A stretch of DNA of 64,000 bases from positions 1 through 64,000 of the forward strand of contig JACREZ010000045.1 of the NCBI GenBank assembly GCA_016212665.1. The letters are read 5' to 3'. The number at the start of each line of letters is the position of its first letter. The stretch's first letter is position 1. The DNA comes from Ignavibacteriota bacterium (GTDB lineage: Bacteria; Bacteroidota; Ignavibacteria; UBA10030; SZUA-254). A program made the translations under genes and the position numbers. The notes below the pieces were generated by a model, which was not told the origin of the DNA, ran no database searches, and worked only from the letters and a program-made list of their open reading frames with translations. This document shows positions 58,102 to 59,112 of the stretch, in pieces.

Positions 58102-58186
58102 GGAACAATGAAAAATGCAAAATTAAAAATTAAAAAAGGTACATCAATTTTTAACTTATCACTGATAACTTTTAACTTTGCGTTTG
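58102..58186. repeat. spacer between tRNA-Val and tRNA-Leu with short words
   Basis: The spacer has AATGAAAAATGCAAAATTAAAAA (58107-58129), repeated exactly at 58767-58789, and TAACTTATCACTGATAACTTTTAACT. These belong to the short-period word families seen in other spacers. Confidence 0.5.
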
Positions 58187-58272
58187 TGCCGGGGATCGGA
58201 ATCGAACCGACACTCTCCTTGCGAAGAACAGGATTTTAAGTCCTGTGCGTCTACCAGTTTCGCCACCCCGGC
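58187..58272 (-). tRNA. tRNA-Leu (anticodon TAA)
   Basis: The 86-nt minus-strand sequence has acceptor GCCGGGG/CCCCGGC, anticodon stem CAGGA/TCCTG around CTTAAAA, the long variable arm of class II tRNAs and a T-arm with GGTTCGATTCC. CCA is not encoded. Confidence 0.93.
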
Positions 58273-58394
58273 ATTGCTTGGTGACTTGTTAATTGATGAT
58301 TAGTTAACTCATGAGTAGTTAATTAGTTTCATACAGAACACAACACATTCAAATCACAAATCACTAATTAACGAATTATCCAATCACTAACCAG

Positions 58395-58466
58395 AGGTGC
58401 CGAGCGGATTCGAACCGCTGCATAAAAGTTTTGCAGACTTCTCCCTTACCACTTGGGTACGGCACC
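58395..58466 (-). tRNA. tRNA-Cys (anticodon GCA)
   Basis: The minus strand gives acceptor GGTGCCG/CGGCACC with discriminator U, D-arm, anticodon stem GAAGT/ACTTT around CTGCAAA, and T-arm GCGGTTCGAATCCGC. The first 11 nt and 6 nt of leader are duplicated upstream at 58745-58761, beyond a GIY-YIG gene whose last codons lie inside this tRNA. Confidence 0.93.
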
Positions 58467-58703
58467 AGTCAAAATATTCTTCAATTCTTCTCTCCCCTTT
58501 CCACTTGTTAAATATCTCTCCCGTTGTTTTGCATCGTCCTCTGTCACATATTCTTCAGTATAAATCAAAACAAACGGACGTCTTCGTTTAGTTGATTCTG
58601 TTTTACCGCCGTTATGTTCCTTTAACCGTCTTTCGATATCAACCGTATAACCTGTATAATTCTTTCCATCCTTCAAACTTTTCAGAACATAAACTGTAAA
58701 CAT
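58446..58703 (-). CDS. GIY-YIG nuclease family protein
   Basis: The ATG at 58703 gives 85 residues of the small UvrC/Uri-like GIY-YIG type: TVYVLKSLKDGKNYTGYTVDIERRLKEHN with the Tyr pair and catalytic Arg, a mid STKRRRPFVLIYTEE, and EDDAKQRERYLTS with the catalytic Glu. The last codons for GAVPKW and the TAA stop are the first 21 nt of tRNA-Cys. The gene lies in a segment flanked by a 17-bp direct repeat, which suggests insertion. Confidence 0.85.
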   Translation of the reverse strand: MFTVYVLKSLKDGKNYTGYTVDIERRLKEHNGGKTESTKRRRPFVLIYTEEYVTEDDAKQRERYLTSGKGREELKNILTGAVPKW

Positions 58704-58761
58704 CGTATATCCACTTACCACTCTTCCCCGCCTTCGGCGGGTGCGGTACGGCACCAGTCAA
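58456..58761. mobile_element. small GIY-YIG insertion at the 5' end of tRNA-Cys
   Basis: GGTACGGCACCAGTCAA occurs at 58456-58472, across the tRNA-Cys 5' end, and again at 58745-58761. The 272 nt between them hold almost the whole GIY-YIG gene and a CCCGCC-TTC-GGCGGG hairpin at 58727-58741 next to one end. The tRNA remains complete. The layout fits a target-site duplication or an attachment-site pair of a tiny homing-like element. Confidence 0.6.
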
Positions 58762-58875
58762 TTCAAAATGAAAAATGCAAAATTAAAAAAGCCCGTTTGC
58801 TCGGAAAGTAAGAAGTTACAACTCTACTTTTCCATTTTCTCTACGAGCCGTAGGCATTTTTACTTTTGCATTGAG

Positions 58876-58948
<73 letters not shown>

Positions 58949-58980
58949 ATTTTAATTTAATTCACAAAACCAGCGACTTC

Positions 58981-59023
58981 AATCCCGCTTGAACGGGATT
59001 ACTCTCTACTCCGCCTATGGCGG
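58981..59023. repeat. two small hairpin elements
   Basis: AATCCCG-CTTGAA-CGGGATT (58981-59000) and CCGCC-TAT-GGCGG (59011-59023) stand side by side. On the minus strand the first is preceded by GTAGAGAG, similar to the GTAGAG head of the elements at 48218-48296. The second belongs to the CCGCC-GGCGG family. Confidence 0.55.
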
Positions 59024-59112
59024 AAGTTATTCCCCAATTTTATGGGTGCAAATATAGCAAATTAACCTAAACCAAGCAAGAAGACTTGAAAAAGACTGAA
59101 TTAAGTAAGAAG

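Follow-up and report, generated by a model that had tools for sequence, protein, structure and literature searches.

The window, a stretch of 64,000 nucleotides from an Ignavibacteriota bacterium (contig JACREZ010000045.1), contains a chromosomal tRNA cluster, not a phage genome, beside a gene that, going by its sequence, is presumably thrS. Within this cluster, the tRNA-Cys gene is adjoined by a small GIY-YIG nuclease gene and, across that gene, by a second, partial copy of itself. The features of the locus are the following:

58394..58466, minus strand: intact tRNA-Cys (GCA), the element's host gene (ARAGORN; Rfam tRNA, 65.1 bits)
58446..58703, minus strand: GIY-YIG nuclease gene, 85 aa (PF01541, E 3.5e-16; table of open reading frames; stop position)
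58456..58472, minus strand: repeat copy 1, made of 6 nt upstream plus nt 1-11 of the intact tRNA-Cys (sequence match)
58714..58761, minus strand: second copy of the 5' end of tRNA-Cys (nt -5 to 22), non-functional and with a hairpin inside it (alignment)
58745..58761, minus strand: repeat copy 2, the uninterrupted 17 nt of the second copy (sequence match)
58727..58741, no strand: palindrome CCCGCCTTCGGCGGG, 15 nt, inserted in the second copy (sequence)
58875..58948, minus strand: tRNA-Gly, upstream neighbour, which defines the empty site in relatives (ARAGORN and relatives' loci)
58186..58272, minus strand: tRNA-Leu, downstream neighbour in the syntenic Gly-Cys-Leu-Val cluster (ARAGORN and relatives' loci)

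An earlier note on this DNA had described a GIY-YIG gene between two copies of a 17-bp repeat at the ends of a 289-nt unit, with its C-terminus and stop drawn from the first 21 nt of a tRNA-Cys that stays intact, and all of this holds. The sequence GGTACGGCACCAGTCAA lies at 58456-58472 and again at 58745-58761, with a spacing of 289 nt; it has no third match with three or fewer mismatches, and two matches occurred in 0 of 100 shuffled windows. Read along the minus strand, the arrangement starts with TTGACT and tRNA-Cys nt 1-11, continues with the hairpin insert and tRNA nt 14-22 again, and then passes through an ATG and the 85-codon GIY-YIG gene into the intact tRNA-Cys, whose nt 1-21 form the last six codons and the TAA of the nuclease gene. 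The duplication itself was only partly captured by the earlier description: the repeat is real, but it is just the longest unbroken part of a copy of about 28 nt that is interrupted by a hairpin and picks up beyond it at tRNA nt 14-22 (58714-58722). This copy scores 29.3 on an alignment restricted to the tRNA (threshold 34) and 41.3 when the upstream flank is included. The 289-bp unit has room for the GIY gene only, with no integrase and no HUH (Y1) transposase, and an Rfam search at the locus returned only tRNAs, tRNA-Cys being uninterrupted, and two sub-threshold antisense matches. Short palindromes, CTCTACGAGCCGTAGG and TCCGCC...GGCGGA, recur in the intergenic DNA of this genome (in the window at 58794-58870 and 58980-59030); palindromes of these types are also found inside spoiled tRNA copies, as in the tRNA-Ala copy of locus L004.

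The window protein consists of a single GIY-YIG domain (59.7 bits against PF01541, curated cut-off 22.6), and the catalytic positions Y4, Y15, G17, R25, H29 and E61 are invariant in an alignment of 20 relatives. By comparison with PDB profiles, the nearest solved structures are those of other single-domain GIY-YIG proteins, the UPF0213 proteins 1zg2 and 1ywl and then SLX1 entries. SLX1 is a cellular repair nuclease; to our knowledge UPF0213 has no known function, and neither has been described as inserted at tRNA genes. The median Ka/Ks is 0.13 for 62 pairs, which take in non-tRNA lineages, with 61 of the 62 below 0.5; the nuclease is thus under purifying selection. There are nine PF01541 matches in the same genome, three of them at tRNAs (Cys, Pro, Ala), so that what had been taken for a single inserted unit is one of a family, with two further elements in its own genome. 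At tRNA-Pro(GGG) and tRNA-Ala(CGC) the order is reversed relative to the tRNA-Cys element: the intact tRNA comes first, the GIY gene follows a few nucleotides downstream, and a further copy of the tRNA's 3' part, interrupted by palindromes, closes the element.

Second tRNA copies and their hairpins

We quantified the association with tRNA genes in two samples. The first comprised 98 loci, namely 9 from the window's own genome, 29 from a search of 60 relatives of the same order (taken as the best-scoring places among the matches listed) and 60 fetched from the top of the list. Our own profile located 104 GIY domains in them, 50 of which have a tRNA within 400 nt, always on the same strand. The second sample, 80 loci from a GTDB scan with three proteins of the tRNA-Cys lineage, and hence chosen by likeness to that lineage, came from Bacteroidota, Chlorobiota/Ignavibacteria, several candidate phyla, Cloacimonadota, Elusimicrobia, Omnitrophota and others. 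It yielded 93 GIY domains, with 76 at most 400 nt from a tRNA and 0 on the opposite strand. Pooling both samples, 126 of 126 tRNA-adjacent GIY genes (within 400 nt) lie on the strand of the tRNA, a figure that counts two places twice, since L129 (two domains) repeats L018; L129 was kept in the adjacency and insert counts and dropped from the second-copy and inverted-repeat counts.

Across the gene from the adjacent tRNA, a second copy of that tRNA was detected (score of at least 34) for 96 of the 108 GIY genes that have enough flank and lie at most 250 nt from a tRNA, as against 28 of 800 flanks of other-isotype elements, some of which contain real tRNAs, and 0 of 108 shuffled flanks. This count leaves out hits < 200 nt and tRNA-??? 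calls; one of the 96 is a spurious tRNA-Gly match (L084), which was left out of the inverted-repeat count. The 12 elements without a copy at this score include that of the window, because its copy is short. Second copies correspond to the 5' part, the 3' part or the whole of the tRNA (whole in L166 and L151), and in L166 and others they start and finish near the tRNA ends. One locus (L131) holds three tandem 317-bp units closing with one intact tRNA. ARAGORN labels full-length tRNA-Arg copies bearing a hairpin either tRNA-??? or, falsely, tRNA-Cys of 94 nt (L198, L172), and such copies are a likely cause of tRNA misannotation.

The copies resemble the tRNA of the genome in which they lie. Among 41 tRNA-Arg loci, the 20 nt to the left of the hairpin show a mean identity of 93% to the intact tRNA of their own locus versus 58% to those of other loci, and the 14 nt to the right 85% versus 59%, means for own identity that are lowered by four mis-registered rows that were kept (L134, L156, L193, L202). 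The own identity of the right side was reached in 0 of 5000 permutations. Since the copies match the tRNA of their own genome, these identities indicate that the resident tRNA was duplicated, or else homogenised afterwards. They speak against a tRNA copy brought in from a donor, an origin that later gene conversion could mask.

Most copies are interrupted. Inserts of at least 8 nt are present in 86 of 99 copies (135 inserts in total), and 82 of 99 contain an inverted repeat whose arms measure 6 nt or more; random pieces do so in 105 of 495 cases and intact tRNAs in 35 of 99. The place of the insert is characteristic of the tRNA. At the 41 tRNA-Arg loci it falls exactly on the border of D-loop and D-stem, mostly as GGATA^GA and regardless of the anticodon, the commonest insert being the perfect palindrome CCTGCCTGCCGGCAGGCAGG; three tRNA-Met copies and one tRNA-His copy have their insert at the same place. 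The tRNA-Cys copies of the window's genome (G000) and of its relatives G003 and G028 share a palindrome at one place, the two relatives having a hairpin structure of the window's type there, and G024 has a different palindrome at that place. The pattern CCTGCC...GGCAGG occurs 53 times in the 80 loci, 41 times in a TA^GA context. Hairpins are also found at TA^G in more than one place of a tRNA (L134, L143, L147), and the T-loop receives inserts as well (TTC^GA). In locus L240 (G073), the hairpin CCTGCCTGCCGGCAGGCAGG sits in a tRNA-Leu copy adjoining a GIY gene, and one hairpin therefore occurs with more than one isotype. RNA folding of hairpin-bearing copies gave no clear signal (z -1.60 and -1.25).

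Genome-wide, the tRNA-Arg hairpin is rare, with 0-19 places in each of 19 genomes, and we therefore reject the decay of these copies through a common dispersed palindrome. It is not exclusive to tRNA elements, since 15 of the 20 places that were fetched lie away from them.

Many nuclease genes end within the tRNA. Among 65 genes that end close to a downstream tRNA, 47 have their stop codon inside it, in answer to the earlier suggestion of looking for other GIY-YIG C-termini encoded by tRNAs. The stop is at tRNA nt 8-10 in 20 of these genes and at nt 21-23 in 14. TAG is the stop at either place, and the window gene ends with TAA. The favoured hairpin sites read TA^G at these same two places.

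Occupied and empty sites, and nuclease lineages

The earlier note had proposed looking for empty tRNA-Cys sites in related genomes, and most tRNA-Cys loci of relatives proved to be empty. Of 60 relatives, 47 have the tRNA-Cys pattern. Among the 30 loci that were read, tRNA-Cys was called in 29, the remaining one (L117) being cut by a contig end. Only two of the 29, the window and G003, have a GIY gene, and the others are without it. The same cluster is occupied in G028, which belongs to another family. One relative (L121) has a hairpin-bearing remnant of a second tRNA-Cys copy upstream of tRNA-Cys and no nuclease gene; another (L124) perhaps has a more decayed one. Repeats left without a nuclease had been named as an observation that would tell against insertion, and L121 formally touches on this; it is best read as a case in which the gene was lost later.

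A second locus, YqeY-tRNA-Arg(UCG) in Flavobacterium, gave the same picture (41 genomes searched, 40 with a match, 30 loci read): 29 of the 30 are empty sites, holding a single tRNA without a GIY gene, and one is occupied. Nine further Flavobacterium species are occupied at this locus, as found by the GIY scan and thus selected for holding the gene. They show several layouts, with the hairpin copy before the gene, after it, or flanking the intact tRNA on both sides (L172, L175). Occupied and empty alleles are thus found at one site, as for a free-standing homing endonuclease gene.

In a tree of 100 proteins, nearly all tRNA-adjacent genes group together in a 53-member clade (support 98/88). 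The two genes adjoining tRNA-Asn fall with the other clade, and a clade of 44 is without any tRNA neighbour. Within the tRNA clade, lineages tend to track the isotype (Cys, Asp, Arg, Leu, Ser, Pro and others) across host families: isotype labels require 15 changes on the tree, while 300 shuffles required 30.2 on average and never fewer than 25. Layout, that is the side on which the intact tRNA lies, requires 12 changes versus a mean of 15.0 and a minimum of 10; being within the range of the shuffles, it is therefore not tied to lineage.

Some GIY genes of the tree lie in other kinds of repeat. A subfamily positioned near the tRNA-Cys lineage on the tree is found away from tRNAs, inside inverted repeats TTCACCCCGTGAGATA...TATCTCACGGGGTGAA (L059, L061, L069, L077, L092), and the copies in L061 and L092 appear to interrupt frames whose translation reads as integrase-like. 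Genes of the other large clade (L002, L003, L007, L016, L023, L038, L096) lie within long dispersed repeats, for example palindromes GTCATTCTGA and GTCATTGCGAATCCCG, often with the same repeat on both sides.

Relation to known systems

Elements that integrate at tRNA genes through a tyrosine integrase duplicate part of the tRNA and leave one tRNA intact. The present unit differs from them in holding a GIY gene only, without an integrase, and in that its copy can be the 5' end, the 3' end or the whole of the tRNA. A group I intron with its endonuclease was rejected, given the uninterrupted tRNA-Cys and the Rfam result, and an IS200/IS605 or REP/RAYT element is ruled out by the GIY-YIG gene being the only gene of the unit. 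Relatives in phages are weak (13 records, all below 60% identity), on which ground we reject a phage vector; with its chromosomal locus, the element does not correspond to a SegB-type phage endonuclease either.

SegB is a larger protein than the present domain of about 75 aa. According to the available part of the source, this free-standing endonuclease of T-even phages likewise has its GIY-YIG gene adjoining tRNA genes, breaks DNA within tRNA genes at the motif RAWTSGAAC, and its break leads to duplication of tRNA-containing DNA; the tRNA genes so amplified defeat tRNA-cutting defences (PMC13096335). On our reading, the motif in reverse complement corresponds to the tRNA T-loop, where inserts also occur (TTC^GA). 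SegB thus lends independent support to the idea of GIY-YIG breaks inside tRNA genes. SegB is phage-borne, whereas the present elements lie in bacterial chromosomes and have a single domain and lineages that follow isotypes; no hairpin-tagged second tRNA copy is described for SegB in the available part of the source (PMC13096335).

The available text on mobile endonuclease ORFs of fungal mitochondria describes a comparable arrangement, in which the ORF duplicates the 3' end of atp6, atp9, cox2 or nad3 and lies between a functional and a displaced partial copy of the host gene (PMC3630166). There, however, the targets are protein genes, the copy that functions is of foreign origin and the native one has been displaced, and that text describes no hairpin tag (PMC3630166); here both copies are of host type. 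An ORF of the mitochondrial type with a foreign functional copy does not agree with the 41 tRNA-Arg second copies, which match the tRNA of their own genome. The survey of the GIY-YIG superfamily from 2006 refers to tRNA just three times, in the available text through a fused tRNA methyltransferase domain (PMC1564403). In open-access published papers we found no description of GIY genes between tRNA copies.

Interpretation and significance

The elements, of about 290-320 bp per unit, consist of a single-domain GIY-YIG gene between two same-strand copies of the resident tRNA. One copy is intact; the other carries a hairpin, whose place is characteristic of the tRNA, and is often shortened on its inner side. 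The lineage of the nuclease tracks the isotype of the tRNA, and which copy is spoiled varies freely. We suggest, with moderate confidence, that the window element belongs to a widespread family of minimal, selfish endonuclease elements that live at tRNA genes. For cleavage, homing and the role of the hairpin, we infer the following course. The nuclease would break the tRNA gene at the site that is later marked by the hairpin, and repair would insert the nuclease gene and leave the resident tRNA duplicated, a duplication by which the host would keep a working tRNA. The hairpin would cost the redundant copy its cleavable site, ending cleavage there, and much of its homology to the intact copy, which would keep the repeats from recombining the element away. 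The gene draws its stop codon, and probably its transcription too, from the tRNA. The earlier idea of a nuclease gene accompanied by a copy of its target is thus borne out in structure and by the empty sites in relatives, but not in its details, both copies being of host type rather than donor type and the copy being found on either side of the gene.

Several points stand against the selfish endonuclease reading. Its weak point lies in the intact tRNA: the hairpin interrupts the second copy, yet the intact tRNA retains the same sequence, the proposed target site, so that a carrier has no obvious immunity to its own nuclease. Host-type copies also differ from what a donor-borne homing cassette would leave, and the fidelity to isotypes could stem from homology-driven recombination instead of cleavage specificity. 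Finally, 12 of the 108 elements have no copy by our criterion, and five related GIY genes lie inside inverted repeats away from tRNAs. We class the element as a free-standing endonuclease element in a new form, although a mobile element of a new kind is a serious possibility. The full version of the latter proposal, which we hold tentatively and would not yet favour, is that of a structure-specific single-domain GIY-YIG nuclease with isotype-tied lineages, which would duplicate the resident tRNA and, at the position where it cuts, tag the redundant copy with a hairpin. The hairpin and the nuclease gene would travel together, as components of a single system, among Bacteroidota, candidate phyla and other bacteria.

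It is conceivable, if rather unlikely, that the hairpin is the active part: a structure-specific nuclease like UPF0213 or SLX1 would mobilise hairpins together with its own gene, and the tRNA duplication would be a long target-site duplication from a tRNA cruciform nicked at both ends. This would suit the nearest solved relatives of the protein, the subfamily near the tRNA-Cys lineage that lies between inverted repeats, with two copies inside integrase-like frames, the full-length hairpin-bearing tRNA copies (L166, L151), the TA^G insertions at more than one place in a tRNA (L134, L143, L147) and the copies that start and finish near tRNA ends (L166 and others). However, the hairpin lies left or right of the gene depending on the member and is hence not a fixed element end. 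Moreover, genomes contain the tRNA-Arg hairpin at few places (0-19 in 19 genomes), and 15 of the 20 places sampled are not at tRNA elements.

Integration may instead have been passive, DNA with a tRNA and a GIY gene recombining with the resident tRNA in the manner of Campbell and gene conversion equalising the copies, with the nuclease as a passenger. We find this improbable: the direct repeats, the tandem arrays, both layouts and the isotype fidelity would all be explained, but not a hairpin at one fixed site in many genera, nor the strong selection on the nuclease. A domesticated function, in which the protein and the spoiled copy regulate or protect the tRNA (as decoy, in dosage or in defence), would accord with purifying selection and with the amplification of tRNA genes by SegB against tRNA-cutting defences, as given in the available part of that source (PMC13096335); its uneven distribution among close relatives (29 of 30 loci empty), the many isotypes occupied and the L121 remnant without a gene make it very improbable. 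The weakest account, a chance repeat beside an ordinary small nuclease gene, could appeal to the shortness of 17 bp and to the window copy being among the weakest, and is refuted by the shuffles (0 of 100) and by the comparative data, the same tRNA-Cys structure recurring in two other genomes and a tRNA copy in 96 of 108 elements.

Genes for tRNAs are among the most conserved and essential sequences. If the selfish endonuclease reading is true, the element would be a tRNA-gene parasite of about 300 bp, and one of the smallest autonomous selfish elements known, each lineage keeping to one isotype and the host being spared by the duplication of the gene. With such a system it can be tested how a nuclease selects its target when it has no separate DNA-binding domain, and how an essential gene that can be cut escapes in one of its copies. 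The element would also account for many genes annotated as 'GIY-YIG nuclease family' that adjoin tRNAs and for tRNA pseudogenes with odd hairpins in the genomes of Bacteroidota and candidate phyla. What emerges looks like a family of minimal parasites of tRNA genes, present in many bacteria and at many tRNA genes, and largely unnoticed.
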